This document shows, one piece after another, positions 7,700 to 38,676 of a stretch of DNA of 39,169 bases (position 1 is the first letter of the stretch; the number at the start of each line of letters is the position of its first letter). The notes beneath the pieces were generated by a model that searched no databases, was not told the DNA's origin, and worked only from the letters and a program-made list of their open reading frames with translations. A program made the translations under genes and the position numbers. This DNA is from a virus. The stretch lies in IMG/VR virus record IMGVR_UViG_3300040801_001664, positions 1 through 39,169 of that record; one strand, given 5' to 3'.

Positions 7700-10600
7700 T
7701 TACGAGAGCCTCCGTTTGAAGTAGCTGGCTTCCCTCGAGAGTTACCCACGAGGTCTTGAATATGCCAGGATACTTATCCTTCGTTGATAGAGCGTCAAGC
7801 AGCACTTTGAAGAAGATGCGGTTGACAGCCTCTACGCTGAAGTTATTGTAGATGTTGTCGAAGAACGCGATCGTCCCACCTTCCGTTTCCGTCTCGTTTG
7901 CTTGGAAGAAACTGTTGACGTCTACTGGCGCAAAGTTGTTTGTCGGATCTTGAAGATCGTCAATCACTGTAGCGAGAGCTAGCTGTCCATTTACAAACGC
8001 TTGACCTTCATTCAATCCGTAACGTGTCTGTGTTCCGAACTCTGCGTCGTACGCCTCGCGAACGAAGGAGGGTACACGCACAACAGGATTGTCTAGCTTG
8101 CGACCAATGACCGATTCAGTGATTCGATCCCAATACTCCCGAGGAATCTTGAATGGTTGACCTTGTCTAACAAGTGTCCACTCTGCATGAAGAGTTTTTA
8201 GGTGTAGCGGGTCGCCTGTTCGTTCTGTGCGACCGCCACCTAGCGCCACTTGATCGGTCAACGGATTTGCCGGATCTGATCTTGTCATTAGTTCATCACG
8301 CAACGTGAAGTCGCGTGTAAATCGCATGACATAACGACCATTATCGTTGATCACGTTTGATAGTCCCTTGAACACCGTACGCGTGTATCGGAGCGGCAAG
8401 CTGCCCGCGGCTGGCTCAAGCCCTTCAGGGATGAGGTACGGTGTTGGAATCTGACGGAGTGTCTGCTCAGCAACTGCAAGAGATGGGTTGTTACCAACGC
8501 GTGCAGTCTTACCTCGCACCCAGAAGTAGTAGCGTTGTGTTGTGTTGCCAAACTCATCGATGATGTTGCGAACACTGTAGTTGTAGCCACGTCGGCGCTG
8601 TACCAGTCGTGGGCTTGGATCCGTCTCCGGATCGAACGCATCTTCTGGCTCTTCAGGCTCTTTCACAATAGACACACGATCCGCTTCGTTAGCAGCTGTG
8701 GAGATTGTCACCTGGCTAGCCACTACGACAACGCTTTCCGTGAACAGTCCATTGATGTATACATCAACGGTGTCGCCGTTGTTGATATCGTCGAGGCCTG
8801 AACCCGTAACTACCGAGAATGTAGTATACGGCGCCGAAGCTGAGATACGAGGCGTTTGTCTTTGTATGTTTCTTGGGATCTCAATCCAGTTATCATCAAA
8901 CGGTGGAAGCATTGAGCCGCCCGCGGTTGTTGTGGTCAGATCAACTGGCTCACCGTCTTCTGTTGCCGATACGGTAATCGTCGTTGGACCTGCTCCTGAA
9001 GCGGTCAGAACGTAGTAGAACGTTGACTCACGAAGAGGTGCTGGCAGGCTGCCTGTGAAGGTCACCTTGTCGCCCACGGATACCGTACCAGAGACTGTGA
9101 TCTCGTCAGTCGTGTCGTTTACTACTGTTATCGTCTGTGCTACTCGCGTGCGCACCTGGATGTCTGACTTCGCTGTACCTGACTTACGAACCCGAGGGTC
9201 GATCGAGATATCTACTGCCTCTACAGCAGCGATAGCATCATACTCCTCTGGTGGAACATCAGACTCAGTCCACTGATATAGTTCAATGTCCGCAAAGTCA
9301 GCAAGCTGACCCCAGCGACGGTAACGAAGTTCGCGATCTGGGAAGATTGCTTCGTCGTGATAAGGCACGTACTCGCGGGCTGCCGTATTCCACCACACAC
9401 GACCAACTTCTTGTTCACGCCACGGGCTATCGTCATTCTTGCTGGCAATGGTTGCAGCGTTGTACGTTGCCGGATCTGTGTCCGATTCGAATGTAACAAC
9501 GTTCTCGGCAATCGTGTAGTGGTAGCCACGTCGAGGATCCCAGAACGGAACATCGGTCACTACCAGTTCATCCACCGTATCAATGACTTTAGCCGGGTTC
9601 TGCGCATCCCTGTTTGGATTGACCGCATACATGCGGAACTCTTCGCCTGGGCCGAGAAGTGTGGCAGGATCGACAGAGAATACGATGTGTTGACTATTGA
9701 ACACCTCATAGGTTGGTGGCGTTACAAGTGTACCAGCACCGCTACTATCTACAAGAATCAGTCTGACGTCGTCGAAGAACACTTCTTCGTCGAAGCGAAC
9801 ATACCACCGGCCGTCATCACCTGGATCGCCGCCAGCAGAAGCTGCTGTAAACACATGAACATCGGTAATGTCAGCATCAAGATAGAACGTGTCGCCATTG
9901 TCCGATAGCTTCGCAGCCTGATCCGGTTGGTCCGCCCAACGATCTTGATCGGATAAGAAAACACCTTCGAACGTTGGCTCGGTGTCTGCGACACGATCCT
10001 GTGATGGATCAAGGAAATCGATTCTCGTGTCCGCGCGGAGAGCATCTCTCTGAGTTAGATTCAGGCTGATATACTCTTGCTCAGCTGACGATCCAAACTC
10101 AGCGACCTTGAATGCCCACACTTCATCAACTTCAGCTTGCGCAAACGTCTCAGAGTTAGCAAACGCATCGAGGCCCAGTGTTGATCCTTTAGAAGCAATG
10201 AACCCACGCCAGAACGCGAACTGCGACTTAGCATTGAGGTTGAGTTCCGTTAGGTACTCCTGCGTACCGGCGCCGGCGTAACCGAGAGACCTACGACCTT
10301 CAGTAATGATCTTCGACGCCTCGAGCGCTCTGTATGTGTCATAAGCATTCTGTAGATCCAACACCGACGACTCAATGTTAGGTCTCAACTGCTCATCTGG
10401 TGTGAGGTAATAACCACCCACGACAGGACGTTGAGTGAACTCTTGCTGACGGAAGAACAACAACTCAAACCGTGCTGTGTTAAGCCCAACAAACTGATCG
10501 TAAATCAAGAAGCCTTCAACCGAGTTATCGTTGAACAGAATGATGTGCTCCGTGCCATCGATGAACAGATTGGCACTTGCAATGTGTCGGAAGTCACGAG

Positions 10601-13600
10601 TTGGATCTTGCTGTTGTGTTGGCAGCAGAGGGTTAGGCAGTTTGTTCTGTACATTGATTCTCGCTAGCTTGTCAAGTCGGAACACAGCGAGCTGTTCCGT
10701 TGTGAGCTGATCGCCGTTCTGATCCGTGATCAGCTGCACGCCACGAAGATCGGCTGCCGTCGTCTTCGAGATATCAGACAGAATGCCCTGTAGTGTACGC
10801 ACCCAAAGGTTTGTGCGCGCTGGATTGATCTCGTACGAAGGAAGCGCAAACTTACCCTGTACATACTCGGTCAGATACAACGGACCTGAGCCGCCTGTAA
10901 GAAGGTCCACAGCGTTACCGAGCAACGCATCAGTCCGCGTGAGGGCTACTTGTACACGCGCTGGATCGTCGCCCATGATCAGGTAATATGGCGTGTTCGG
11001 TAGTAGTGGTGTTGGCACCATTCCGTTTAGAACACCAACACGAACCTTTTGACCAGTTACCCAACTTGGTACCGTCGACGAGAATACAAACTCGTCTGCA
11101 AGTGGGTCTACAGCGACCGGGTACGTTTCCGGTTGTGCCTGACGGAATGATCGTAGCCTGAAGATCGCATCGAGGAATCGTTCCGTTTCTGTCTCCCACG
11201 TGATTGGGCGCTGAAGATCAACATCAATCTCTTGGAACTCGTAGTTGAACTCGAAACCTTCTTCTTTCTCAAGTTCCGCGTAACCGTCGATAACGTTGAT
11301 TAGGTTCTGGATACCACTGATCGCAACTGGAGGCTGAACTGTCAATACGCTGTCAGTATCAAGCACATAGTGCTTCCACTCACGATCTGTCGAACTGCCA
11401 TCAAGAGCGATAAACTTGTATGCGATCTGTCCAACCTCAATCTTACCTATACCGGCGCTTGAGAAGTCAACAGGAATCCGCTCGAAGGCGTTGCGAGCTG
11501 TCGAAGCGAGCTGGAACTCAGTATCACTGATACGGATCACATAGTATGTTGTGTTTGCTTGGAACGGCGAAGGTAGTCCGACCGTTGAGGAGATTTCAAC
11601 AGCATCGCCAGTCTCCCACGGAATTGAGCGATACTCAACCGTCAACACACCATCAACGGTTGGATCCGGTAGAGACGCGCCCGTCGAGATTAGTGTCACG
11701 TCGTTAGCAGAATCGTAGACAACATTCGTGGCTGTGTACACACCATTGTTACCTGTCGACTCGGTGATCATGAAATCGAGATTTTCCGAGAACGCTTCTA
11801 CTTGGTTTCCTAGTATGGTAAACACGCCGCCCAATTGATCAATTGCCGTGACGTTATACTCGTAGATACCAAACACATTGGTGATTGTTCTTGCTCGCAC
11901 AGGATAGTTACGTACATTGTAGTACGACAGCGTACGAGCTTCCGTTGCGAAAGTATCGAGCTGGAAGCGCCAAAGCGATTCGGTATCTTGACTGACGAGA
12001 CGGTTAGGTACCGACAATACCTTGACGTTCAAAGCATCAAAGGTCAAGTTGTCGATACCTGGCGAGTTCTTCAGAAGGATGCGGTAGTCGCGAGCGTTCA
12101 TCTCGAAGTTAGGTGTGTCGATCGTAAACGTACTCGTGTCAATCACCGAGCCAAACTGATACGCTAGAAGTGGATTCCAATTTGTCCACAGTGGTCTGAA
12201 GTTTGACGTGACGGTGTCAAACCCTGAAGCTCGATTGAAGTTTACGTACCACTGGTTTAGTCCTTGGAACTGAAGAAGTTCGTTTGTGTTGTAGATGTCT
12301 CCGTGGAAGCGCACGTCTTTGTGGCTGTATACTTGCTCGAGATCAGCGCTAATGTTGAGACCACCTACCTCGATGAACTCTTCACCGAATGTGCTGTGGA
12401 AGAAGCGCACGGGCTCCATACGGAAACCAACCGTGAGATCGTCGTACAGTCTCTGTGCGGTCTGTGACCATTCAAATTCAACCGGACCACCATCACCAAA
12501 CGTATAGTCGGCACTCTGCGCAACGATTTCACCAAAAGTCTGGAAGGCAGAACGAACCGACGCTGATCCACCATTAGCGCTGAAGTCCCAGTAAGGTGGG
12601 AACACGTCATCTGGGCCGTACCCATCAAGTGTTACATCATCGATGTTGACGGAAACATAAGCGTACTGTTCTGGCACATCCAGGGCAGATCCTGTACCTA
12701 CGCCTACACCATCTGGTAGCGGACGGCCTACAGGAACAGCGCCGATTCGAATGTTCTGCCACATACCTGTCGTTGTAGCGTGGTTGTAGATCCAGCGGCG
12801 AGTGCCTGTCGTATCGAGATACTCTTCATCCCACCACTCTGGTTTTTCTTCGTAGCCTTGTAGACGCCACGGCTCGAGGTGTGGGTATGGTGTGTTATAC
12901 AGCTTATTGTACAGGTCGGTCCACCAACCACCAGTAGGCGGCGCGCCTGTCTGGGGTGGGCTAGTCATAATCGACTGGTTGTAGTTCCACGTGAATGGGT
13001 CTGCTGGGTCGTAGAATTGCGACGACGAGTAAGGATCATCGATCTCTTGTTCGCGCAACCAATCAATGAACGCATCTTGTAGGTACGCGTTAAACGTATC
13101 GGCCTCTGTAATGGTGGCACTGATATCAGGGCACGAGATCTCGGATGTCGCTAGAGCTGGTACATCGAATGCGAGCTCCTCGAGTTCGGGAGCGTAATCG
13201 TACAGGCGTGTTTCCACATCGAGCAACAGCGCACTTAGCAGGTCATCGAGGTCGACGACTTCCCAAGCAGCTGTAATGATCTCATCGCCCACAGACGTAA
13301 CAGGCTGCCAGATTTCTGAACTATCGAGCTGGCGTAGCGTCTGCGTACCTGTATCATACCAGAAAGCACCCGGCTGAACACCAATTGGCGGTGATACACT
13401 GATCGATGCTACAGCAAAACGATACAGCACACGACTGGTGCCAACCACCTGGTACCAATAGATGCCCGTGCGCTGCGTTACAACAAGACCGAGATCGCTA
13501 AATGTAGTTGGGACGGGATCTGCAGTTTGGATACCAAACGTTTCGCCTGTGAATGATCGCTCGTCCACAGTATTGATTGTCAGTTGAATCAAACTCTCTT

Positions 13601-16600
13601 TCGTGCGTTGTGCTAGCGTTGGCGTAGAGCGATGTCCGTCGTGATGAACTAGTTGATATACACCCGTATCCTCGTCCTGGATAATGTATGGTCGTCGCGC
13701 AAACGCCATACGAATGTATGGTAGTGTCGCTGGCCAGTTGCGAACTCCGGAGTCAGTTACAGGATCGTATGTGTTACTGTCACCGTACAGTAGTGCAAGA
13801 TAATCATTGAGCTCATAACGACGTATGACATCCTCCGCAATAGAGTCTTCAAGACGATCGATAAAGGACGCCGATGTGTTTGTTAGATACGATACCAGAT
13901 TATCGCGGTAGATCTCTTTCAGTGTGTTGAGGGAGTTGAGATATTGCTCGTGTGCAAAGTCAATAACACCTCGAGGTGTCACATTATCAACAAAGATTGC
14001 CGACAGCAACGTATCGTAGCTGAAGTTGTGTTCTTTGATTCTTCCACCCAGTCCAAAGTTGGGATTAAGCAGTAGGTAGAACACGTTACCTGGTACTGTT
14101 ACACCCGGTACCGCAGATTGCGCATTGATGATCGATGAGAAATGAGCAACGAGTTCACGGAACGTAACTTCTTGTCTGTTCTCGTGCTCGCTGTTGAAGT
14201 ATAGCTGGTCTGGGATTTCCCAGAATCCGTTTGGATCTCCAACAGGCACAGGATTCCGAGACGAATCTACATACTCTGGAATGTACTCTTCTTCGAAGTT
14301 CCCCTCGCGCCAGATCGTTTGTGGTTCGCCGTTTAGCAAGTACGCGAACATCTTGCCGTTATCTTCTTCCAACAGATACTGCTCGAAGACATAGTTTCCA
14401 TTTGGACCAATCTCAAGTCGGAGACCGGTTAGGACATTTACGACCGCATCCGAAGACTCTTTGAAACCAAACAATTGGTTGGCTTGGAACGCATCTGTAC
14501 CGTCAACATTCACAACATCAAACAACGGATACTGGTTGACATCTGTCTTAACCTGCTCGCTGCGACGATAGTTGATTAGTGATAGCAGCTCGGGCCCATC
14601 GATAGCAAATTGCGCCTCGTCTTCAATCGTTCGGATTTGCAGAGAACCTCTTCCAACATCGGATGCCGCAGGAGGACCTACCTCGATACGAATTGTTGAG
14701 TTGAGTGGTACGACATAGTCGAATTGGATGCCCGAAACAAATCCCGACCCGCCGTCGATCTCCACAAACTGCCCGTATTGACGGATATCGTCGACGTATA
14801 CGCGAATATCGTTCTGCCCAACAAGAGCAACCTCGTCCATCAGTACCGTTTCGGTGCCAGCTGTATCGAGCGGCACAGTCACGCCAAGCGGGACACCCCC
14901 TGGCTGTGTGATTGTATACTCGACGGCGTAGCGAATTTCGTCACCACCAAAATCTGTGGCGTCCACCGTATCGCCTGCTCTGTACTGCGCCTGAACGCCA
15001 CTGAACGTTACAACCACAGGTGGTGATGTAGGATCGATTGCAACATTTGGCGTTTCTGGTTTAGGAGTGACCGGTATAGTGTCTACCACATCCACCAGCA
15101 CCCAGTGAATATTGTAGCCTCTCCACGTATCGCCTTGTGACGTAAACACTGGTGAAATCTCACCGGTTGTCGCAGGTGTGGTGGATGGATGGAAGGCAAA
15201 CCCTTCCTGTATGGTCACTACTGTACCAGCTGGCGTGTAGGACGATGACACAACTGTGTATGTTGTGTCGTTTGCTGAATCGTCCGGATCGTTCTCAATT
15301 CTGAACTCGTAACCTGGCACGAACGTTGATGTTAGATCACCGTCAAGCGGCGACAACGTAACGTTGAATTCATCAACAATGAGATAGCTGAGAGGCTTGA
15401 GCTCAATCAGCTGTGGTTGGTCTGTTGTGTCGTTGAAATCAACAAACTGGTTGTCGCGGTACTTCCAAACGTAATCCTTGAAGTTCCATTTGTTCAGCTG
15501 AACTAGCGCACTGTACTCGATGATCGGTTGTGTCGCTTGACGAGCAGCGGCTGTGTTAACTACAGCATTTTTGTGTATCCACTTGTTTTGTTCAATCCAC
15601 TGGTTTGTTTCGAAGTTACACGCTTCGGCTGAGTCCCAGTACAACTCACCGTACTGCGATAGGCTTTGGATGAACGACAGAAGATCGTCGAAGTTTGCTA
15701 CGACAATCTCCCAACTACTACCATTGTACTGGCGAAGTGGCCCTTGAGCACCACCTGAGATATCGTACCACAAGTCGCCCACATTAGGTGCTAGCGGCGC
15801 TGTCGGCAGGGTGATAGCATCGAACGTCCCTGCTGGTTCGCCTATTAGCGTTCCAAGGAAACCGAAATCGTTACCGTCCCACGGACCTTGGCTCCAACCA
15901 ATATCTCCATCACATGCACAAGCCTTTTCGAGGAAAAATACCGACAACAACTCGGTCAATGACACGACGCCGCCACCTGGATCAGCATTTGTAATGTCTT
16001 GTTGAACAATGATATCTGTGGTGTCGTCGGTGATGTTGTATGTCGACGACAGAGTGTTGAAGAACGTGTTGTTAATCGATGCGTTCGTCGATCCTCGAAC
16101 GAAGAAACGGAAACCAGCAGCAAATAGCACTGTCAGATTACCGGGGATAGAAATCACATTGTCTACGGAGTTAATCGATTGGATGACGTACTCGTTATCA
16201 TATACGTCAAGTGTCTCTTGATAAGCAACAACTAGTTGCTTGGCTTTGGCGCACCGATTCTCAATCGTAATGTACTGCTGTGGTGAAGACGGATCAGTTG
16301 GATCAACCCAGAAATAGTCTCGGAAGTTGATAAATTTGTCAAGGTCAATTGGCGGTATCCAGTTAAACGTCTTCGCACTACCCCAAATCTTCTGGCGGCA
16401 CGGATCGACGCCAAGGCGCTCCAACTCGTTCAGAAGATCAACATAGGTCGATGTATAGTTCTCTCCACCGATGCGGGCGTTGAGAACAGGTTGAAGCTGA
16501 AATGCCTGACGATGTGGCGTCGGTTCTTGAATTTGTCGATTGCGCAGACTGTCGTTTACTTCACCAACGATGCCGTTAGCCCGCTCAATCTCTGGTTTAG

Positions 16601-16721
16601 AGAACATGCGGTTGAGAGCGTTGTTGAACACGCTCTCATTCGTAGACGATTGAAGTACTTCTGGTAGAAGTTCAAACAGATCCGAATATGGTCGGGTGAA
16701 ATCGCTGTTTTTGTTGGCCAC
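7692..16721 (-). CDS. Giant virion structural protein (3009 aa), baseplate wedge position
   Basis: One uninterrupted 9-kb reading frame. The start is GTG, with GGAG 10 bases upstream. The N-terminus (LFELLPEVLQSSTNESVFNNALNRMFSK) and residues about 88-140 (STYVDLLNEL, then PIDLDKFINFRDYFWV) match a pattern I know from very large structural proteins of marine T4-like phages. The rest is mostly beta, with two recurrent modules. One is N-x-T/G-x-Y-T-x-V (near 15225-15290 and 11710-11770). The other is a T-x-Y-Y-V/L element followed by V-D-L/F-x-x-x-G-x-G (near 11440-11640, 10865-11100 and 8925-9100). It follows gp6 directly, where T4 has gp7 (about 1030 residues), so it may be an expanded wedge protein. 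That role is inferred from position. Confidence 0.85.
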   Translation of the reverse strand: MANKNSDFTRPYSDLFELLPEVLQSSTNESVFNNALNRMFSKPEIERANGIVGEVNDSLRNRQIQEPTPHRQAFQLQPVLNARIGGENYTSTYVDLLNELERLGVDPCRQKIWGSAKTFNWIPPIDLDKFINFRDYFWVDPTDPSSPQQYITIENRCAKAKQLVVAYQETLDVYDNEYVIQSINSVDNVISIPGNLTVLFAAGFRFFVRGSTNASINNTFFNTLSSTYNITDDTTDIIVQQDITNADPGGGVVSLTELLSVFFLEKACACDGDIGWSQGPWDGNDFGFLGTLIGEPAGTFDAITLPTAPLAPNVGDLWYDISGGAQGPLRQYNGSSWEIVVANFDDLLSFIQSLSQYGELYWDSAEACNFETNQWIEQNKWIHKNAVVNTAAARQATQPIIEYSALVQLNKWNFKDYVWKYRDNQFVDFNDTTDQPQLIELKPLSYLIVDEFNVTLSPLDGDLTSTFVPGYEFRIENDPDDSANDTTYTVVSSSYTPAGTVVTIQEGFAFHPSTTPATTGEISPVFTSQGDTWRGYNIHWVLVDVVDTIPVTPKPETPNVAIDPTSPPVVVTFSGVQAQYRAGDTVDATDFGGDEIRYAVEYTITQPGGVPLGVTVPLDTAGTETVLMDEVALVGQNDIRVYVDDIRQYGQFVEIDGGSGFVSGIQFDYVVPLNSTIRIEVGPPAASDVGRGSLQIRTIEDEAQFAIDGPELLSLINYRRSEQVKTDVNQYPLFDVVNVDGTDAFQANQLFGFKESSDAVVNVLTGLRLEIGPNGNYVFEQYLLEEDNGKMFAYLLNGEPQTIWREGNFEEEYIPEYVDSSRNPVPVGDPNGFWEIPDQLYFNSEHENRQEVTFRELVAHFSSIINAQSAVPGVTVPGNVFYLLLNPNFGLGGRIKEHNFSYDTLLSAIFVDNVTPRGVIDFAHEQYLNSLNTLKEIYRDNLVSYLTNTSASFIDRLEDSIAEDVIRRYELNDYLALLYGDSNTYDPVTDSGVRNWPATLPYIRMAFARRPYIIQDEDTGVYQLVHHDGHRSTPTLAQRTKESLIQLTINTVDERSFTGETFGIQTADPVPTTFSDLGLVVTQRTGIYWYQVVGTSRVLYRFAVASISVSPPIGVQPGAFWYDTGTQTLRQLDSSEIWQPVTSVGDEIITAAWEVVDLDDLLSALLLDVETRLYDYAPELEELAFDVPALATSEISCPDISATITEADTFNAYLQDAFIDWLREQEIDDPYSSSQFYDPADPFTWNYNQSIMTSPPQTGAPPTGGWWTDLYNKLYNTPYPHLEPWRLQGYEEKPEWWDEEYLDTTGTRRWIYNHATTTGMWQNIRIGAVPVGRPLPDGVGVGTGSALDVPEQYAYVSVNIDDVTLDGYGPDDVFPPYWDFSANGGSASVRSAFQTFGEIVAQSADYTFGDGGPVEFEWSQTAQRLYDDLTVGFRMEPVRFFHSTFGEEFIEVGGLNISADLEQVYSHKDVRFHGDIYNTNELLQFQGLNQWYVNFNRASGFDTVTSNFRPLWTNWNPLLAYQFGSVIDTSTFTIDTPNFEMNARDYRILLKNSPGIDNLTFDALNVKVLSVPNRLVSQDTESLWRFQLDTFATEARTLSYYNVRNYPVRARTITNVFGIYEYNVTAIDQLGGVFTILGNQVEAFSENLDFMITESTGNNGVYTATNVVYDSANDVTLISTGASLPDPTVDGVLTVEYRSIPWETGDAVEISSTVGLPSPFQANTTYYVIRISDTEFQLASTARNAFERIPVDFSSAGIGKIEVGQIAYKFIALDGSSTDREWKHYVLDTDSVLTVQPPVAISGIQNLINVIDGYAELEKEEGFEFNYEFQEIDVDLQRPITWETETERFLDAIFRLRSFRQAQPETYPVAVDPLADEFVFSSTVPSWVTGQKVRVGVLNGMVPTPLLPNTPYYLIMGDDPARVQVALTRTDALLGNAVDLLTGGSGPLYLTEYVQGKFALPSYEINPARTNLWVRTLQGILSDISKTTAADLRGVQLITDQNGDQLTTEQLAVFRLDKLARINVQNKLPNPLLPTQQQDPTRDFRHIASANLFIDGTEHIILFNDNSVEGFLIYDQFVGLNTARFELLFFRQQEFTQRPVVGGYYLTPDEQLRPNIESSVLDLQNAYDTYRALEASKIITEGRRSLGYAGAGTQEYLTELNLNAKSQFAFWRGFIASKGSTLGLDAFANSETFAQAEVDEVWAFKVAEFGSSAEQEYISLNLTQRDALRADTRIDFLDPSQDRVADTEPTFEGVFLSDQDRWADQPDQAAKLSDNGDTFYLDADITDVHVFTAASAGGDPGDDGRWYVRFDEEVFFDDVRLILVDSSGAGTLVTPPTYEVFNSQHIVFSVDPATLLGPGEEFRMYAVNPNRDAQNPAKVIDTVDELVVTDVPFWDPRRGYHYTIAENVVTFESDTDPATYNAATIASKNDDSPWREQEVGRVWWNTAAREYVPYHDEAIFPDRELRYRRWGQLADFADIELYQWTESDVPPEEYDAIAAVEAVDISIDPRVRKSGTAKSDIQVRTRVAQTITVVNDTTDEITVSGTVSVGDKVTFTGSLPAPLRESTFYYVLTASGAGPTTITVSATEDGEPVDLTTTTAGGSMLPPFDDNWIEIPRNIQRQTPRISASAPYTTFSVVTGSGLDDINNGDTVDVYINGLFTESVVVVASQVTISTAANEADRVSIVKEPEEPEDAFDPETDPSPRLVQRRRGYNYSVRNIIDEFGNTTQRYYFWVRGKTARVGNNPSLAVAEQTLRQIPTPYLIPEGLEPAAGSLPLRYTRTVFKGLSNVINDNGRYVMRFTRDFTLRDELMTRSDPANPLTDQVALGGGRTERTGDPLHLKTLHAEWTLVRQGQPFKIPREYWDRITESVIGRKLDNPVVRVPSFVREAYDAEFGTQTRYGLNEGQAFVNGQLALATVIDDLQDPTNNFAPVDVNSFFQANETETEGGTIAFFDNIYNNFSVEAVNRIFFKVLLDALSTKDKYPGIFKTSWVTLEGSQLLQTEALVNG

Positions 16722-24291: not shown

Positions 24292-24980
24292 TAGAATCCT
24301 TTGAGTCGACCTCTTCTGTAATCATCTAGGTTAAAGCGATTGAAATCACTCGGCGATTGTGTTTCGAATAGGTTAAGGTCGACAGACATGATTGTCGGAA
24401 ACGGCTCTCCTGCTGGAATCTCAATAAAGTCGCCTTGAAGTGTCTCTTCCCTAAATGCAGCCGTTGGAATGTAATCAACGTCACTGGGGTAGGTGATCTG
24501 TAGGTTGTTTAGAACGACGGGAATGTTGTGTAGGTTGAACTGCGAGCCTCTTGACGTAGAGGTAGACGTGTTGGTTGATTCGCCTATGTCAGGCCTGTCT
24601 GGATTGGAAATTGTCGTCTTTGCTACTGTTCGAATAGGTTCGGCGGCGAAGGCGTAGAGCGACAGTACGTCAGGCGGTAGTCCGAGTCTACCGTTACTAG
24701 CGCTGCCAAAATAAGGTAGCGTCCAACTTCTCAGTCGTTGAAGTTTGATCATATTCTTCGACGCTTCAAGGGGAGTACGAGATATCAGGCGCGCGTTGTT
24801 AATGGCAAACACACGAGACGGTGTGTGCGAGTAAGCATAGATCGTACCCGGCGAATGAACAGGGTTCATTGACTTATACTCAACCGACCGCGTTTCAGAT
24901 ACGTCCGGCACTACGTCAAATACTACCAGATCTCTGGACAGCTGCGACCGAAGTTTTACTTTGAAGTTATTCTGTGCCAT
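24291..24980 (-). CDS. Tail tube-baseplate junction protein, gp48/gp54-like
   Basis: A 229-residue protein. The best signal is the middle: SKNMIKLQRLRSWTLPYFG, a short linker, then L-G-L-P-P-D-V-L-S-L-Y. A helix, an aromatic-Pro, then a 'G-P-P-D-V-L' strand is what I expect of gp48/gp54 tube-initiator proteins of T4-like phages. Its position between the nucleotidyltransferase and gp53, in the baseplate operon, agrees. It would cap the hub and template the tail tube. T4 gp48 is about 360 residues, so either the N- or C-terminal part is missing, or this is a different tube-like protein. The N-terminal 70 residues are beta-rich. Start and stop overlap both neighbours by TAATG junctions. Confidence 0.55.
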   Translation of the reverse strand: MAQNNFKVKLRSQLSRDLVVFDVVPDVSETRSVEYKSMNPVHSPGTIYAYSHTPSRVFAINNARLISRTPLEASKNMIKLQRLRSWTLPYFGSASNGRLGLPPDVLSLYAFAAEPIRTVAKTTISNPDRPDIGESTNTSTSTSRGSQFNLHNIPVVLNNLQITYPSDVDYIPTAAFREETLQGDFIEIPAGEPFPTIMSVDLNLFETQSPSDFNRFNLDDYRRGRLKGF

Positions 24981-25579
24981 TACTTGCTCTTAGGTAGATG
25001 CTCTTGCATCTTCTTGATCAACTTCGCTGCTTCTTCGGCGCTTAACCCTGTGTACGCAGACACCTTTGCAGCGTCTCCTGCAGCTGCTGCGTCGCGTACT
25101 TTCGTAGCGCTGATGCCCTTCACATCATCAGCATCAGGATCGCGCGTCAACACCTCTGCTTCATATCGGTCTGCTACTTCATCACCGAAGATCCGACCAA
25201 CCATCGACTTATACGACTTGGCTCTGTCTGAACCTGTGACGCCGCCAACAGGCACCATCTTCTCTTTACCCATTTGTTCTACTGCGTCGTATGGGTTCTT
25301 GGCGATTACAATGTGAACCTGAGGGAACATATCGTGTAAATACTTCTTACGTATGTCACCATCCAGAGGATTCTTCGCATCGCGCTTGCCTGAGTCAACA
25401 ATGATCACAACAGGTGTTGCACTATGCTTCTTGCCCAACTTGACAAGTTTGTCAATCATCAAAGCATGCCCTTTATGCGGCGGATTAAACCGTCCGGGGC
25501 TTATTACCACCGGCTTCATGTCTTTGATGTCTTCTGGTGAGAAAGCGGCTTCCTCACTGATAAACTGTTTGAATCCCAT
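24980..25579 (-). CDS. Nucleotidyltransferase with capsid-targeting-like N-terminus
   Basis: A 199-residue member of the cytidylyl/adenylyltransferase (HIGH) superfamily. The catalytic H-x-G-H motif is H35-K-G-H38 within SPGRFNPPHKGHALMIDKL, and the second signature is ISATKVR (156-162). These enzymes join a nucleotide to a phosphorylated substrate (NMN, pantetheine phosphate, FMN, glycerol or choline phosphate); the substrate is not evident. The first residues, MGFKQFISEEA, resemble the T4 internal-protein capsid-targeting sequence (MKTYQEFIAEA), which the gp21 protease cuts after I-x-E. It is first in the late structural operon, behind an exact TATAAATA promoter and a GAGGAG ribosome-binding site. 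That suggests a virion-packaged, injected enzyme. The packaging idea is inference; the family assignment is firm. Confidence 0.85.
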   Translation of the reverse strand: MGFKQFISEEAAFSPEDIKDMKPVVISPGRFNPPHKGHALMIDKLVKLGKKHSATPVVIIVDSGKRDAKNPLDGDIRKKYLHDMFPQVHIVIAKNPYDAVEQMGKEKMVPVGGVTGSDRAKSYKSMVGRIFGDEVADRYEAEVLTRDPDADDVKGISATKVRDAAAAGDAAKVSAYTGLSAEEAAKLIKKMQEHLPKSK

Positions 25580-27247: not shown

Positions 27248-30091
27248 ATGATCCGATTTACCACACTAACGCTAAAGAACTTCCTGTCGTACGGAGCAGA
27301 GCCAACAGTCATTCCGTTGGAGCGGCCGGGGACGACACTGATCGTAGGCGAAGACCTCGACAACTCAGCTGGGGGTACTGGAGCGAATGGCGTGGGGAAA
27401 TTCCAAAGTGTGGATTCGCTCGTCAAAACGCCCGATGGTTGGGTCCGTATGGGGGATATCCAACTCGGCGAAAAACTACAAATGCCCGATGGGACAGTAG
27501 CTCCGGTAACAGGAATTTTCCCACAAGGAAAACAACCCCTCTATCGTGTTACATTTGCCGATGGAAGGAGTACGTTGGCGGGCGGGCCACATCTGTGGAC
27601 AGTATTCTCACACAGATGGGGTAAGCAAGGAACTCGCGGTACGAAGACGGTAACTACTGAACAATTGGCTAGTTATCTCGACGAATGCGCGGAGAGAGTT
27701 TTCAAACCTTGGTACAATATTTTCGTACCAACCGTAACTCATCCAGAGACGAACGACAAAGACGTTCCAATCGACCCTTATTTGTTGGGTGTATTACTTG
27801 GTGATGGGTGTATCTCGCAGGGCGGTGGTATGATCACAAGCGCCGACGACGCCGTAATTGATACATGCAGAGAGATCCTCGCCCGTGACCACGGTCAACA
27901 GCTGGTTTTACAAGAATATGAATACAGCAATGGCTATGATTGGTGTGTGCGCGGAATTGGAAATAACGCACTTAAACAATGCTTGACAGGTTTGAACCTG
28001 TATGGAACTACATCCAGCACCAAATTTATACCCGTCGATTATCTCGAGGGGACATCTAAACAACAGAAACTGGATTTGTTGGCTGGTTTGTTGGATACAG
28101 ACGGTACAGTTGGAAAAACCAAAAATGTGAGCTTTTGCTCTGTTAGCAAGCAGCTTGCTCAAGACGTTCAATACCTCATTCGTAGCTTAGGCGGAAAGGC
28201 TACAATTAGCGAGCGACAACCTTTTTATACTAACAAGAAGGGTGAAAGAGTAAGAGGACAAACTGCTTATAACGTTTCTATTAGATATTCTAACCCTCGA
28301 GAATTGTTTCGGTTAGAACGCAAACGACAACGGTTATCGGAGGGGTCAACACAATACGCTGAAGAGGGTCTTCGTGTTGTGAATATCGAGCTGGCTGAAG
28401 AGGGCGAAGCCCAGTGCATTATGGTTGATCACCCTGATCATCTTTACATCACAGACGACTTCATCGTTACACACAACACCGTAATTATCAACGGTCTTGC
28501 ATATGGTGTGTACGACCGTCCCGTTTCGAACATCTCGAAAGACAACCTCGTCAACAACATCAACAAGAAGCATATGGAAGTTGTCGTTGAGTTCTACAAG
28601 GGCGACGACCACTACCTAATTCGTCGCGTTCGCAAGGCTAAGAGCTATGCTGCTGGGAACTTTGTTCAACTGTTTGAGAACGGTAAGGACATCACCCCCG
28701 ATAGCGTCGCGAATACGAACAAGCATATCGAGTCAATCATCGGACTGCCGTTCGAACTGTTCTCACGGATCGTCGTATTCTCAGCCACGAACCTTCCGTT
28801 CCTCGACCTTCCGGTTCGCAGTCAGACTGGTCCGAACCAAACTGACATCATCGAAGAACTGTTTGATCTCAAGACGCTGTCGCACAAGGCCACAAACCTC
28901 AAAGAGCAGCTCAAAGAGCTGGAGCTACTAATCTCTGGTAAGCAAGAGCGTATTGCACTTCTTGAGGAAGAACTTGGGCGTCACGAGAAACAGCTTGAGT
29001 CTGCTCATCGTCGTGTTCGTGATTGGGAGAACGGTAGACAGAGAGATATCGCAGAGCTTGAACGAAAGCTCAAGCGTGTATCCGCCGTAGATGTTGAGGG
29101 TCAGCATCAACTCCACAACCAGCTCGTAGAGATCGATAATGAGCTTGAGAAGGCTGTGGCTGAACAGCGTGATGTAGAACGTGAACTCAAAAGGATCAAC
29201 AAGAGCAAGAAAGATGCTGAGAAGGAGCTTGCACACCTTCTTGACGACAAATGCCCCTACTGCTTGCAGAAGTATGCAGGTGCGGCCGACAAGATCGCCG
29301 AGAATGAGCAGATCATCGTTGAGTCGGAAGAAGGGCTGGAGATATATGGTGAGAAAATCAGCAACATCGACGACCTCGTCGACGGTTGGTCCAAGAAGCG
29401 CGAAGAGATTAAGAGCCAGATTACGGTGAACGATCTACAGGAACTGATGGAAACGATGAGCAAGAGCTCCGACTATCAGCGTAGGATCGAAGAACTCAGA
29501 GCTGCCAGCAACCCCTTCGAGGAGCCTCTACAAGAACTAGAAGAGTTCGAACTCGAAGAAATAGATTACGACGAGATCAACGATCTAATGAAGAAGCGCG
29601 ATCACATGAAGTTCCTTCTCAAATTGTTGACGAGGAAGGATAGCTTCGTGCGGCGGGTGCTTCTCAACAAGACACTACCATTCCTGAACCAACGTTTGCA
29701 AGACTACCTCACTGCACTAGGCTTGCCTCATCAGGTTCAGTTCACACACGAAATGACAGCGAGTATCACTGAGTTTGGTCGCTTGATGGACTTCGGTAAC
29801 CTGTCTAACGGACAGCGTGCCCGAGTAAACCTAGCACTATCGTTCGCATTCAGAGATGTGCTACAGAGCATGCATCAAAGAATCAACATCTGTTTGTTGG
29901 ATGAGGTTCTTGATGTTGGACTGGACTCCGTAGGCGTTACGGCCGCTGCTAGGATGATCAAGCACAAGGCACGTGACGAAGGATTGAGCCTATATATCAT
30001 ATCACATCGCGACGAGATTGATAGCGCGTTTGATAGGGTACTAACGGTTCAGAAAAGCGACGGATTTAGCAGGATTTATGAAAATGAATAA
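27248..30091 (+). CDS. gp46: Recombination ATPase gp46 (Rad50/SbcC-like), intein-containing
   Basis: A 947-residue precursor. Removing residues 52-410 leaves 588 residues, near T4 gp46 (560). The extein has Walker A GANGVGK|T, split by the intein, and long coiled coils (about 525-665 and 690-790) around a CPYC zinc hook (669-672). It also has the ABC signature LSNGQRAR (852-859), Walker B CLLDE with D885/E886 and the D-loop VLDVGLD, and an H-loop ISHRDE around S919-H920. It pairs with gp47 for end resection in recombination-dependent replication. The P-loop strand carries an insert EDLDNSAGGT that I associate with marine T4-like gp46. Since the intein cuts the ATP site, the enzyme should be inactive until spliced. 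The gene overlaps the next by 14 bases. Confidence 0.93.
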   Translation: MIRFTTLTLKNFLSYGAEPTVIPLERPGTTLIVGEDLDNSAGGTGANGVGKFQSVDSLVKTPDGWVRMGDIQLGEKLQMPDGTVAPVTGIFPQGKQPLYRVTFADGRSTLAGGPHLWTVFSHRWGKQGTRGTKTVTTEQLASYLDECAERVFKPWYNIFVPTVTHPETNDKDVPIDPYLLGVLLGDGCISQGGGMITSADDAVIDTCREILARDHGQQLVLQEYEYSNGYDWCVRGIGNNALKQCLTGLNLYGTTSSTKFIPVDYLEGTSKQQKLDLLAGLLDTDGTVGKTKNVSFCSVSKQLAQDVQYLIRSLGGKATISERQPFYTNKKGERVRGQTAYNVSIRYSNPRELFRLERKRQRLSEGSTQYAEEGLRVVNIELAEEGEAQCIMVDHPDHLYITDDFIVTHNTVIINGLAYGVYDRPVSNISKDNLVNNINKKHMEVVVEFYKGDDHYLIRRVRKAKSYAAGNFVQLFENGKDITPDSVANTNKHIESIIGLPFELFSRIVVFSATNLPFLDLPVRSQTGPNQTDIIEELFDLKTLSHKATNLKEQLKELELLISGKQERIALLEEELGRHEKQLESAHRRVRDWENGRQRDIAELERKLKRVSAVDVEGQHQLHNQLVEIDNELEKAVAEQRDVERELKRINKSKKDAEKELAHLLDDKCPYCLQKYAGAADKIAENEQIIVESEEGLEIYGEKISNIDDLVDGWSKKREEIKSQITVNDLQELMETMSKSSDYQRRIEELRAASNPFEEPLQELEEFELEEIDYDEINDLMKKRDHMKFLLKLLTRKDSFVRRVLLNKTLPFLNQRLQDYLTALGLPHQVQFTHEMTASITEFGRLMDFGNLSNGQRARVNLALSFAFRDVLQSMHQRINICLLDEVLDVGLDSVGVTAAARMIKHKARDEGLSLYIISHRDEIDSAFDRVLTVQKSDGFSRIYENE
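27401..28477 (+). mobile_element. Class 3-type intein with LAGLIDADG homing endonuclease in gp46
   Basis: A 359-residue insertion exactly between K51 and T411 of the Walker A lysine-threonine. It begins with Phe, not Cys/Ser/Ala, and then has the block A strand VDSLVKTPDGW. The class 3 signature is complete: W117 in block B (H115-L-W117), C390 in block F (EAQCIMVDHPDHLYI) and T408 in block G (VTHN), that is W66, C339 and T357 in intein numbering. The last residues are H-N, followed by extein Thr. The endonuclease has LLGVLLGDG (179-187, D186) and LLAGLLDTDG (277-286, D285), both with their acidic residues, so it looks active. Codon choice (many TTG and AAA) differs by eye from the flanks. Confidence 0.9.
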
Positions 30092-33703: not shown

Positions 33704-35305
33704 ATGTCCGATATCCTCAATTTCTGGCCAATCCCTGAATTCCAACCTAGACCCAATCAGGTTGCCGCTTTGGAATGGTTGGCCGAACAAGATGCGAAGT
33801 ACTGCTTCCTGCAGGCACCGGTTGGTGCAGGTAAGTCCCTCATTGGTGCCACTTTTGCTGGTTACCGAAAAGCCATGCAGGGCAACACCCACGGTTCGTA
33901 CATCCTGACTCCACAGAGGATACTACAGGAGCAATACGAGAAGACATTCCCACGGCATATTGCTGCTAGCCTCTATGGCAAGGGGAACTATCAATGTGCC
34001 AAATGTGATTCGACATGCGATGTTGGTTCCGTTCTGGATAAGAAGTGCGGTAGTTGCCCTTACGACATTGCTAAGACGGCTGCTAAGGCAGCTGAAAATG
34101 TTATCCTGAACTACAAGATTGCATTCCTGATGTTCCGGTACACCAACGTATGGGCTACACGCCCATTGATGGTACTAGATGAATGTCACGTTGCAGAAGA
34201 CCATCTAACAGAACTTGACGCTGCCACAATCCACGAAAAGCGTGCAGAGAAGTATGGAGTCAAATGGCGTACATTTGACGACATGTTCCTAGCCCGTAAT
34301 TGGATCCGTGATGAGTACCTGCCAAAAGCACAAGACCATTACGACGATCTCTATGAAAGTCTCAAGCACATTGTAGAAGCTGGAGATTCACCGTCTTCCT
34401 CCGATGTACGCAAGTTGAAGGAAATGAGCGGCCTTGGCGAGCATCTCGATAGTGTTGGTGAAGTTGTTTATCTACCAGACGACCAACTTCAGGATGTATT
34501 CGTTCTCGTCAAAGATAAAGTGACGATGAAGTTTAAGCGTCTCAGTGGTGGTCCAATCTTCCATGAGATAGTCAAGCCACAAGCCGATAAGTTCTTGTTC
34601 ATGTCGTCGACAATCCTGAACTACAAAGGATTCTGCAACGACTTGAGCATCGATCCAGAAGATGCAGTCTACCTTGACCTGAACTCTGAGTTTGATCCAG
34701 AAAACCGTCCTGTATACTTCATGCCACAGATGAAGATGAACGCATCGTGGAAAGCAGATGAGAACGCTGGCAAACGTGAGCGAATGCTCCGGCGCATCAT
34801 CGATATCTGCAAGATGTATGACGAAGACGGTGTTACCCAAAGTGGTATTATCCACAGCGGTAACTTCCAGGTTGCGCAGTGGTTGGTGGAGAACCTCGAA
34901 GGAAAGATTCCCCAAGAGATTTGGCACCATAACCCTGACAGTGGGCGCGATCGAAATGACATTATCAACGGCTTCCAGCGGGATCAACTTCCAGGTATCT
35001 TGATCTCACCTTCTATCACAGAAGGACTCGATTTGAAAGACGACCTCTCCCGCTTTGCAATCTTCGTGAAGATCCCTTTTGGATTCCTTGGAGACCAGTG
35101 GATCAAGCGTCGTATGGAGATGTCGCAGGAGTGGTATCAGCGCAGAGCGCTGATCGATGTCATTCAGGGTGCTGGACGTGTTGTGCGTTCAAAGGAAGAT
35201 TGGGGACACACGTTCATCCTCGACGCATCGTGGGCATATCTGTACAAGTCGACTTCTAGGCACATCCCCGATTGGTGGAAGGACGGCTACCTAGTAGCAG
35301 ATTAG
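33704..35305 (+). CDS. XPD/DinG-type superfamily 2 helicase with Fe-S cysteines
   Basis: 533 residues from the ATG at 33704 (MSDILNFWPI); an in-frame GTG at 33626 would add 26 unlike residues. Walker A is APVGAGKS (38-45), Walker B is D-E-C-H (159-162), then FLFMSSTILN, SPSITEGLDLKDD and QGAGRVVRSKED (motifs III-VI). Between motifs Ia and II lie five cysteines (98, 101, 105, 115, 118 in NYQCAKCDSTCDVG and DKKCGSCPYD). This is the place of the 4Fe-4S domain of XPD/DinG helicases. Such enzymes unwind 5'-3', often at forks, D-loops or R-loops. T4 itself uses UvsW and Dda, so this is a different choice. It ends in a convergent overlap (TTAG) with the minus-strand chaperone gene. Confidence 0.88.
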   Translation: MSDILNFWPIPEFQPRPNQVAALEWLAEQDAKYCFLQAPVGAGKSLIGATFAGYRKAMQGNTHGSYILTPQRILQEQYEKTFPRHIAASLYGKGNYQCAKCDSTCDVGSVLDKKCGSCPYDIAKTAAKAAENVILNYKIAFLMFRYTNVWATRPLMVLDECHVAEDHLTELDAATIHEKRAEKYGVKWRTFDDMFLARNWIRDEYLPKAQDHYDDLYESLKHIVEAGDSPSSSDVRKLKEMSGLGEHLDSVGEVVYLPDDQLQDVFVLVKDKVTMKFKRLSGGPIFHEIVKPQADKFLFMSSTILNYKGFCNDLSIDPEDAVYLDLNSEFDPENRPVYFMPQMKMNASWKADENAGKRERMLRRIIDICKMYDEDGVTQSGIIHSGNFQVAQWLVENLEGKIPQEIWHHNPDSGRDRNDIINGFQRDQLPGILISPSITEGLDLKDDLSRFAIFVKIPFGFLGDQWIKRRMEMSQEWYQRRALIDVIQGAGRVVRSKEDWGHTFILDASWAYLYKSTSRHIPDWWKDGYLVAD

Positions 35306-35502
35306 ACGCGCTGCTTACCTGAGGCCCTATCCATAGCCTTGCGCTCGTTCTCGTAGTGGCGTTCAATGTATCGAGCAACGATCAATCGTTCTGTATGAGT
35401 TAGGTCAAACGCTTCTGTGTAAGTAAGACCGCCCTTCATGTGGAAGGCCAGATCAACAGCCTGATCGATAAGTCGAGCCGACTCCGACTGCATTTGCGCC
35501 AC
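35302..35502 (-). CDS. gp51-like small tail protein; putative frameshift extension of gp26-like
   Basis: A 66-residue protein if started at the GTG at 35502. The motif HMKGGLTYTEAFDLTHTERL, followed by helix VARYIERHYENERKAMDRAS, looks like the small proteins after gp26 in T4-like phages and like tail assembly chaperone T-domains. It occupies the T4 gp51 position (T4 order 26-51). The same frame is open upstream, without a stop, through the slippery site at the end of the gp26-like gene (Y-V-I-L-K-S-G-N-P-Q-H-F-R-E-T precedes the GTG). The protein may therefore be made mainly as a gp26-like fusion of 337 residues. AGGGA lies four bases before the GTG and is partly inside the hairpin, so independent initiation is possible but shielded. 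It ends in a convergent overlap with the helicase stop. Confidence 0.7.
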   Translation of the reverse strand: MAQMQSESARLIDQAVDLAFHMKGGLTYTEAFDLTHTERLIVARYIERHYENERKAMDRASGKQRV

Positions 35503-35508
35503 AGTTTC

Positions 35509-35553
35509 CCTGAAGTGCTGTGGGTTACCTGACTTCAGGATTACGTAAAAAAA
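35509..35553 (-). promoter_or_regulatory. Candidate -1 programmed frameshift signal (slippery T7 + hairpin)
   Basis: Reading the minus strand: codons ACT TTT TTT ACG TAA contain T TTT TTT in the zero frame (35553-35547). A seven-base spacer follows, then CCTGAAGT (35539-35532), a 15-base loop, and its exact complement ACTTCAGG (35516-35509). The zero-frame stop comes two codons after the slip. The -1 frame is open for 15 codons to the GTG of the 66-residue gene and through that gene. Sequence, spacing and position next to the tape measure gene match lambda G/GT-type sites. Confidence 0.75.
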
Positions 35554-36314
35554 GTGATAGGATTAGACGGGACGTCGATCTCCCAATCTTCACCACAATC
35601 TTTGCACTTAATTGTCTGCTTTGGCTGAATACCCCAGTCACTGACCTCGATAATTTCGTCAGCAATCTGGCCGATCCACCCAGCAGGAACTTCGTTCAAC
35701 CACTCGAGAATCTGATCGCGATTCTCGATACCATCGACGTCTTTGATCATTCCAGACAGGTTGGTGAATACTATCTTAGCGGCGTCTTCATTTGACATGC
35801 TGTCGAAATTGTCGGTGGACTGATACATTGCAATCACGTCTTTGAACATAGGCGGGCGCATTTCAACAACCTGACCATTCGGCATGGTAACAGAGTACTT
35901 CTTGGTGGGGTCGACTTCTTTGGTTGACCGTAGCAATTCGCGAGGCTGCAGAGTATACGTGTGCATCTGTGCATCCTCGCAGGTGTGTGCAATTTGAATG
36001 TCGAGGTCTTCTCCGTATGATACCAGACGGAGACACATCAGCAAATAATCAACATCCTTGGACAGGAGATCCATAGGCTTTTGAATTTGAGGAATTCTTC
36101 GCAGGAAAACTTCCTCAATAGCCTTACCTGATAGCAGCTTGTCGGGCGACTTCAACACGAGCTCATCAATCGTGGTCATGGGAGCAACATGAACTTCTCC
36201 ATCAACAACATCGTCGCTAATCTCACCATTGGTGTAGTACTTTCCACGCGATGGTAGTCGGAACGTTTCACCTGGAATACGCACTTTTGCCAGTAGTGGA
36301 TTTTGGTCTGTCAT
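35541..36314 (-). CDS. gp26: Baseplate hub/tail chaperone gp26-like
   Basis: A 257-residue protein related to T4 gp26 (208). Typical segments are the N-terminus RIPGETFRLPSRGKYYTNG, then a helix region PMTTIDELVLKSPDKLLSGK, then DVDYLLMCLRLVSYGEDL, and a single C-x-x-C near the C-terminus (KCKDCGEDWEIDV). T4 gp26 is needed for hub assembly. Here it stands head-to-head with the tape measure gene and ends in a slippery T7. Together with the following gp51-like frame this looks like the G/GT tail assembly chaperone pair, in which the main product and a minority -1 fusion coat the tape measure. GGAG precedes the ATG. It has its own late-type promoter. The chaperone role is inferred, as T4 gp26 is described as a hub factor. 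Confidence 0.82.
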   Translation of the reverse strand: MTDQNPLLAKVRIPGETFRLPSRGKYYTNGEISDDVVDGEVHVAPMTTIDELVLKSPDKLLSGKAIEEVFLRRIPQIQKPMDLLSKDVDYLLMCLRLVSYGEDLDIQIAHTCEDAQMHTYTLQPRELLRSTKEVDPTKKYSVTMPNGQVVEMRPPMFKDVIAMYQSTDNFDSMSNEDAAKIVFTNLSGMIKDVDGIENRDQILEWLNEVPAGWIGQIADEIIEVSDWGIQPKQTIKCKDCGEDWEIDVPSNPITFFT

Positions 36315-36417: not shown

Positions 36418-38676
36418 GTGGCAGAGAACGTCGATTACACAGTATTGGGCAGACGACTAGCTGAAGGTATGCGACAGGCTGGCTTATTCAGAGATATAGC
36501 CGAGGCCACTCGTGGACGCACCCAGGGCGATCGGGAAGGTGACAACATCACTGTTGATGTTGGTGATGCTGTCGAAACCGCCTTCAGACCTAGCAATCGC
36601 GCTATCAAGAACTGGAACAAGGCTGTCCAGGGACAAACTGTGTTTATGCGCGCCGAATCTCGTGAGGCTGTAAAAAGATTTAGGGCAGCTCAAACGCGCC
36701 ATCAAGAGGCCCTAAAAAATCAACAGCTAGCAATAGAAGCCGAAAAGAAGGGTGCAAAGATAGCAAACTACCGTCGCAGAGTTGAGGAAGCTCTCGTCGA
36801 AAGCACAGAAGAAATGCGTGAGGCGCAGCAAGCCTATATCAATGCGCAGAACCCAGCCACCAACAAGATGGCTATGCTCGCAGGTAGGGCAGGAACCGCA
36901 GCGTTGGCACTAGGTAGTATCGCTGCGGTGGGGGCCAAGTATCTTGCGGGCCAAACAGTGCAGCAACTAGCTGCCGGTTCCCAGCTAGCTGTTGGCGAAA
37001 TGGAAATGCTCACCGCAGCGGTTGGCGTAACCACCGAAGAGTTTCTTGAGCTTGAGGGGGCAAATCGACAAGCTCTAAACGCTATGGGCGGAACCTCTGT
37101 GGCGATGCAAGGTTTTAGGAATCAGATTGCAGCGGGAATATTTGAGGCTGATGGACTAGCGCGCACGTTTGGTAGTGTACGCAAGGGATTTATTGGTGTG
37201 GTTCAAGCAACAGGCGACATGGCCAAGAGCGGCATGCGCTCCACAGCAGCCACTCAGGGATACATTCAGCAGATGGATGAGTTCCGAACAATTTTCGGAA
37301 CGACGCCTGAGCAGTTTAGACAACTCAACAACACTTTGATGGAGAATGTTGAGGTTCGCCAATCGCTGAGAGGACTGGACCAAAATGAGCGTCGTGTTCG
37401 GATGGAAGGCATCCGAATGCAGATTGAGTTAAACGGCGCTCTTGGTATGACGTCAGAGCAGGCTGTTGCAGCTGCAACTAGATTACAAGAGATAGCAGGT
37501 GGAACAGCCAAAAATAGACTACAGCAAGCAGCAAGATTCCAAGCAATGGCTGCTGCGTACGGTATTGAAGGTGGCGCAGAGGCTGCAGCAGCAATTCGCG
37601 CAGGACGTAGGGCCACACCTGAACAACAACGTATCATTCAACAGGTTGCCAATCAACTATCTGATATAGGTGCACGCACGGAAACTGGTGGAACCATTGG
37701 CCAGGAAATGATGTTTCAGCAAATGTCAGACTCCTTGGGTCTGACGGAGCTGGTCGGCAAAAATTCTGTTTTCAACAGCACTCTCGGTGAAACAAATAGG
37801 GCACTAGAGGGTACTGATGACGCTGTTAAACAACTCAACGCACTGCTGGGTCCTGGCAGCGAGTTCACCACACTAAACAACAACACCGACAAGCTGAGCG
37901 AAACCATGGGCGGTTTGGCTATCGCCGTCGAGCGCCTATCCGATGCTATTGATAGTAAACTCGGCCAGTTGCTCAAGCAGGTGGGGAGCACAGCACTAGG
38001 CGCTTTCACAGGCGGTGCTGCTGCAGCTAAATTTGGACCTAGTGTTCTCCGAGCGCTAGGCCTTGGCAGGTTTGCCGGACCAGGTCTTGCGGCGGCCGCT
38101 CCTGCAATGATTGGGCCGGGTGTGGCAGCCACAGGCGCAGCGGCTGCAGGTACGGCAGCCCAGGGTGCTGCCGGGGCAGCAGGAGCGGGGGCACAGGCCG
38201 CTGCAGCTGGCTCTCGAGCTGGCGGCGCTATGCGTTTGCTTGGAGGTGCAGGAAGACTCGGTGGAGCAGTGCTGTCAAAAGCGTTCTTGCCTTTGACTCT
38301 TGCTATGGGTGCATACGGTGTAATCAAGGATTTCGATAAACTTGAAGGACCAATGGACTACATCAAGGCTATTGGGTCAGGCATGTCAGGTGGTTTGTAT
38401 ACTCCAGAGTACAGCACCGATGCTCCAACACCTGAACAAATGGCAGCTGGAGATATCACGGAGGAGCAACAGATGTTCTTCCCTGTGATAGCAGAACAGG
38501 CACTTAACCAAACCACACTAGCTGAAGCCGCACTCGAAGTCTCCCGAGAACAGAAAGCGTTGCTTGAACAACTCGTTGCTCTGCAAGGTAGCCTACTCGA
38601 TCACGTTACTGCTCCTAAAGCAACCCCTGGACCGGGCGTCGAGCGACGAGCACTACCAGGGTCAGAGATGTTCTAA
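36418..38676 (+). CDS. Tail tape measure protein
   Basis: 752 residues, starting with GTG behind GAGGAA. Residues 80-145 are coiled coil (SREAVKRFRAAQTRHQEALK, then AIEAEKKGAKIANYRRRVEE). Hydrophobic Ala/Gly segments follow (AMLAGRAGTAALALGSIAAV at about 152; a long Ala/Gly-rich region at about 525-610; SKAFLPLTLAMGAYGVIKDF). A helical middle contains GMTSEQAVAAATRLQEIAGG. This mix of coiled coil and membrane-like segments is typical of tape measure proteins, which fix tail length and later enter the host envelope. T4's equivalent, gp29, is 590 residues. Divergence from the gp26/gp51-like pair, which probably coats it, supports the role. The middle Ala-rich DNA is repetitive in codon use (GCA/GCT/GCG). 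Confidence 0.8.
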   Translation: MAENVDYTVLGRRLAEGMRQAGLFRDIAEATRGRTQGDREGDNITVDVGDAVETAFRPSNRAIKNWNKAVQGQTVFMRAESREAVKRFRAAQTRHQEALKNQQLAIEAEKKGAKIANYRRRVEEALVESTEEMREAQQAYINAQNPATNKMAMLAGRAGTAALALGSIAAVGAKYLAGQTVQQLAAGSQLAVGEMEMLTAAVGVTTEEFLELEGANRQALNAMGGTSVAMQGFRNQIAAGIFEADGLARTFGSVRKGFIGVVQATGDMAKSGMRSTAATQGYIQQMDEFRTIFGTTPEQFRQLNNTLMENVEVRQSLRGLDQNERRVRMEGIRMQIELNGALGMTSEQAVAAATRLQEIAGGTAKNRLQQAARFQAMAAAYGIEGGAEAAAAIRAGRRATPEQQRIIQQVANQLSDIGARTETGGTIGQEMMFQQMSDSLGLTELVGKNSVFNSTLGETNRALEGTDDAVKQLNALLGPGSEFTTLNNNTDKLSETMGGLAIAVERLSDAIDSKLGQLLKQVGSTALGAFTGGAAAAKFGPSVLRALGLGRFAGPGLAAAAPAMIGPGVAATGAAAAGTAAQGAAGAAGAGAQAAAAGSRAGGAMRLLGGAGRLGGAVLSKAFLPLTLAMGAYGVIKDFDKLEGPMDYIKAIGSGMSGGLYTPEYSTDAPTPEQMAAGDITEEQQMFFPVIAEQALNQTTLAEAALEVSREQKALLEQLVALQGSLLDHVTAPKATPGPGVERRALPGSEMF

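Follow-up and report, generated by a model that had tools for sequence, protein, structure and literature searches.

Phage lambda makes a short tail assembly chaperone, gpG, and a minor long form, gpGT, which arises by -1 frameshifting; the genes lie beside that of the tape measure protein (PMC5009743). A 2016 NAR review described G-T frameshifting as widely conserved and named T4 as the exception (PMC5009743). The T4 proteins gp26 and gp51 are described as hub assembly chaperones, and gp51 is essential, has an unknown function, and is absent from the particle (PMC3004832). As reported in papers that cite the work (PMC10274946, PMC12846349), T4-like tail assembly chaperones were identified by Vladimirov, Gautam and Davidson in 2022 (Virology 566:9-15, PMID 34826709). 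Of the papers citing that study, the Adele paper notes poly-T slippery sequences in T4-like short-form genes, and PRFect notes that some T4-like phages have, instead, two copies, one short and one fused and long. An earlier note on the DNA analysed here had hinted that gp26 and gp51 were not assigned to the chaperone family. On these citing accounts the hint is out of date, and the interpretation given in the note is sound but not new at the family level.

The window, which is the whole 39,169-nucleotide stretch of viral DNA that was analysed, contains a new, distant member of the T4-like tail assembly chaperones, and its arrangement has already been described. It resembles the T4-like chaperones of Vladimirov et al. 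2022, as these are summarised by the citing papers, in having a gene pair with one short and one long form; it differs in that the phage is uncultivated and that its protein shares about 40% identity with the XacN1 counterpart. Judged from the sequence, the locus very probably belongs to a distant T4-like myovirus and encodes its tail assembly chaperone in a short and a long form by a frameshift of the G/GT type.

The likeness to lambda gpG/gpGT is one of layout, and no sequence similarity was shown. The lambda heptamer is G GGA AAG, whereas that of the window is T TTT TTT, and the putative tape measure gene of the window is divergently transcribed. The short form of the window family is larger than that of lambda and has two CxxC-like pairs in most members.

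The gp26-like gene and its -1 frame in the window

The locus comprises the following features.

35541..36314, minus strand: short form, gp26-like, 257 aa, PF12322 (T4_baseplate); equivalent of G / TAC-N
35547..35553, minus strand: slippery heptamer T TTT TTT, in zero-frame register (X XXY YYZ); the corresponding site reads T TTT TTY in 94 of 103 clusters of relatives
35302..35547, minus strand: -1-frame extension, 81 residues after FF; T / TAC-C domain
35302-35502, minus strand: small 66-aa ORF, the downstream part of the -1-frame extension
35302..36314, minus strand: predicted fusion, 337 aa; equivalent of GT / TAC-NC
35509..35539, minus strand: perfect 8-bp stem CCTGAAGT/ACTTCAGG with a 15-nt loop; 35532-35539 pairs with 35509-35516
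36418..38676, plus strand: divergent neighbour, 752 aa, putative tape measure protein by position and character

The short form matched PF12322 above the curated cut-off (43.2 bits against 24.5, E=5e-11). Its gene ends on the minus strand with ...CCT ATC ACT TTT TTT ACG TAA, in which TAA occupies 35541-35543. A -1 slip after TTT TTT would continue FF as YVILKSGNPQ... in a frame that is open for 81 codons and reaches a stop at 35302. Most ribosomes would terminate at the TAA just after T TTT TTT and yield the 257-aa short form, and a minority would slip back by one base to yield the 337-aa long form, which ends in a helical domain. Re-reading of the minus strand and translation confirmed the gene end ACT TTT TTT ACG TAA, the heptamer in the zero frame, and the open -1 frame with a 257-aa product beside a 337-aa fusion, all of which the earlier note had described. 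Its label "gp51-like" for the small gene holds for the C-terminal part of T4 gp51 and not for gp51 as a whole, which is a gp26 paralogue plus the C-terminal part that the small ORF of the window resembles. The small ORF alone had zero matches in searches of Pfam and PHROGs.

The perfect 8-bp stem was also read in the sequence as the note had given it, starting 7 nt past the heptamer. The stem is at best a possible stimulator of slippage, and the folding downstream of the heptamer in the window was unremarkable (z -0.77). Compared with shuffled sequence, the downstream region of the relatives had a mean z of -0.91, and the upstream control had -0.33. Strong downstream hairpins were found in some relatives (XacN1, L015, and L016). 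Across the relatives no conserved downstream RNA stem was found, with a mild excess of folding only, and SD-like stimulators upstream of the heptamer were not enriched (4 versus 6 in the control). A stimulator of slippage may exist.

The note had identified the neighbour as a divergently transcribed tape measure gene. The divergent orientation stands, and it is conserved together with the gene in three relatives (L014, L015, and L016). The neighbour had zero family matches in Pfam, PHROGs, and NCBIfam, so its putative identity as a tape measure protein rests on position and character. In phages immuto and SP-15 the genes follow the order sheath, tube, gp26-like gene, small ORF, and annotated tape measure gene; the gp26-like gene is where the gene for a tail assembly chaperone classically lies. 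This position is thus occupied exactly in immuto and SP-15, and in the window and L014-L016 the gene pair adjoins the putative tape measure gene.

Three other features of the window were observed. The ORF at 27248-30091 on the plus strand encodes a gp46/SbcC-like subunit with an intein-like insert at about residues 46-410, near the Walker A motif; the insert resembles inteins found in terminases and helicases. A cytidyltransferase-like gene (24980-25579, minus strand) directly adjoins virion structural genes, and a single 3009-aa ORF (7692-16721, minus strand) adjoins a baseplate wedge gene.

Conservation of the proposed shift site among relatives

A scan of viral contigs with the single window protein as the query gave zero matches, and alignment-based queries were needed. 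Two alignment-based scans of viral contigs provided about 160 further loci. The 171 closed ORFs were grouped into 103 clusters at 80% identity. The heptamer T TTT TTY was present at the same two Phe codons in 94 of the 103 clusters and was followed there by an open, homologous -1 frame; six clusters had near variants of it, and three had the domain in another frame. The scan of relatives for a conserved slippery site, which the earlier note had proposed as a check, gave a positive result. Since the site and the frame relation recur in 94 of the 103 clusters, and the frame relation in about 100, a homopolymer sequencing error in the window contig is ruled out.

The near variants were T TTT TCN in five clusters (L019, L128, L142, L166, and L172) and G TTT TTT in one (L014), which is the closest relative of the window. 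All six retain an open and homologous -1 domain, and the canonical heptamer is thus not absolute. A GTTTTT motif has been reported for chaperones of Vandenendeviridae (PMC12846349). The sequence T TTT TTT or T TTT TTC was found at this pair of Phe codons in phages XacN1, RAS14, Phosso, Atu_ph07, PBECO4, SCTP-2, PA5oct, Vibrio phage 2.275.O, and RaK2, and their -1 products can be aligned from the shift site onwards (FFRxRLL...PEEI...). The extension in the -1 frame is mostly 76-77 residues long among the relatives.

The base before the first Phe codon was T in 97 of 98 clusters, where third-position use in the remainder of these genes predicts 43.0. Because the loci share ancestry, such cluster counts are not independent trials and overstate independence. 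The T is kept even though the residue that precedes Phe-Phe varies (N, D, S, H, A, T, R, or Y). The first Phe codon was TTT in 98 of 98 clusters, compared to 697 of 1009 (69%) elsewhere.

The small ORF could instead encode a separate protein with its own start, perhaps coupled to the upstream stop, in which case the frame relation would be incidental. A separate small gene is annotated in many relatives, and the window has a GTG 15 codons into the -1 frame with an AGGGA stretch upstream of it, which favours this explanation. However, among the 98 clusters the distance to the first ATG, GTG, or TTG of the -1 frame ranges from 1 to 48 codons, some clusters having none, and the records of PA5oct and RaK2 have no annotated small gene although the domain is present. 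From the zero-frame stop to the first start codon of the -1 frame, 15 non-overlapping pairs showed 69, 33, and 116 differences at -1 codon positions 1, 2, and 3. The pattern indicates that ribosomes read this stretch in the -1 frame, and an internal start would not account for it. Together with the T that 97 of 98 clusters retain at a synonymous position, these observations make two independent proteins highly improbable.

Transcriptional rather than ribosomal slippage could also join the two frames. Polymerases are known to slip on runs of T or A, and the window has a run of seven T. Most relatives have only six T (T TTT TTC) and some five (T TTT TCN), which is short for polymerase slippage. 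In nearly every relative the codon phase is that of a tandem tRNA slip, and we consider a transcriptional origin of the long form very unlikely.

The +1 clade and T4 genes 26 and 51

In a sister clade (L190, L191, L192, L010, L012, L092, and L207-L286), which includes Mel-JY01, LR756508, SP-15, immuto, RM378, and many immuto-like contigs, the C-terminal domain is in the +1 frame and overlaps the end of the gp26-like gene. It is the same domain as that of the -1 clade (hhalign 96.5%, E 7e-10). The putative shift region has the form TTT-Y, with TTT TTT in 14, TTT CTT in 12, and TTT CTA in 3 of the 29 sequences, and TGG CCT usually comes next. Immediately ahead of the first TTT, the base was C, A, or G in all 29 members and T in none, compared to a T background of 37%; in the -1 clade, 97 of the 98 clusters have a T there. 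If tRNA-Phe moved by +1 from UUU onto UUY, all 29 members would be accounted for. A shift on the second codon instead (CTT T, the RF2 type) does not fit the members with TTT CTA. A -2 slip may be another reading of the frame in this clade.

The +1 sister clade is the least familiar result of our analysis. As +1 frameshifting was proposed for the chaperone of HSTV-2 (PMC5009743), the +1 direction alone is not new. The switch of direction inside one recognisable family may be. We regard it as moderately probable that the direction of frameshifting switched within one chaperone family, which, with the duplication in T4 described below, would amount to three solutions for a short and a long form.

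Phages P-SSM2, S-PM2, Cr30, phiM12, KVP40, and HTVC008M each have one match to PF12322 and a T TTT TTY followed by a -1 domain. The small ORF is labelled gp51 or baseplate hub assembly catalyst in the database records of P-SSM2, KVP40, and HTVC008M, and the KVP40 record likewise likens it to the C-terminal part of gp51 only. Two PF12322 genes are present in T4 and in RB43 each. The T4 genes are located as follows.

L013 5803-6429 and 6480-7229: T4 genes 26 and 51, divergently transcribed paralogues

In RB43 (L193) the 51-like gene and the 26-like gene form a tandem with a few bases of overlap. Both T4 proteins match PF12322, gp51 over residues 1-201, and the C-terminus of gp51 corresponds to the -1 domain. 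It matched the -1 domains of KVP40 and cyanophages (hhalign 95.6%, E 1e-8), which in turn matched the domains of the window clade (82%, E 1e-5). A direct hhalign comparison of gp51 with the T domains of the window clade gave a weak match (10.9%); the link between the window and gp51 runs through the KVP40 and cyanophage domains. T4 differs from the window in having two genes without a frameshift, with gp51 as a permanent long form. These sequences are most simply read as a duplication of an ancestral frameshifted gene in the T4 lineage, after which one copy would have retained the short form alone and the other would have fixed the long form. The earlier note had held that related phages with both proteins and no heptamer would speak against the frameshift. 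Such phages occur, namely T4, RB43, and the +1 clade, and the forms that they take fit the model.

It is hardly credible that Phe-Phe is kept for protein reasons only and that the T run is its by-product: the FF motif is found at the end of T4 gp26 too, and PF12322 extends to it, but in this protein without a frameshifted partner the motif is encoded by TTC TTT after GAG, which is not slippery, and the synonymous-site test and the avoidance of T before the first Phe codon in the +1 clade (0/29 versus 97/98 in the -1 clade) contradict this explanation.

Predicted fold and proposed roles

The AlphaFold2 model of the short form had a mean pLDDT of 93. A Foldseek search of the PDB with the model found nothing significant; the best E was 0.26, and the HK97 chaperone had E 2.0. 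Realignment of 828 candidate chains (VIA) placed YqbN (Z 6.5), the HK97 tail assembly chaperone (Z 6.1), and 5ir0 (Z 4.0) as the top three. YqbN is itself a chaperone relative. HK97 gp13 and B. subtilis YqbN (2ob9, 3klu) are thus the best structural matches of the short form, with Z values that are middling and a likeness that is not significant in Foldseek. A search of PDB sequences with the family profile found nothing relevant. In the model of gp51 the G domain is followed by a C-terminal extension that contains helices, and a Foldseek search with this model gave no meaningful match. The likeness of the predicted fold to tail assembly chaperones is supportive and not proof.

The frameshifted G/GT-type chaperone proposed in the earlier note is backed by the conservation at the synonymous site, the homologous -1 domain, the gene order in relatives, and structural matches that resemble tail assembly chaperones. 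If the roles are those of lambda gpG/gpGT, the short form would cover the tape measure protein and the long form would recruit tail tube subunits, with both of them leaving before the tail is completed. We infer the slippage itself, its efficiency, and the binding roles of the two forms.

The results support the later view that T4 gp26 and gp51 are two chaperone forms split into two genes. They also support the view that most wider relatives of gp26 and gp51, including those of uncultivated and jumbo phages that are annotated only with a "baseplate hub" and a hypothetical protein, appear from their sequences to still use the frameshift. The annotation of a large group of phages would be corrected. 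The family allows -1 slippage, apparent +1 slippage, and gene duplication to be compared directly.
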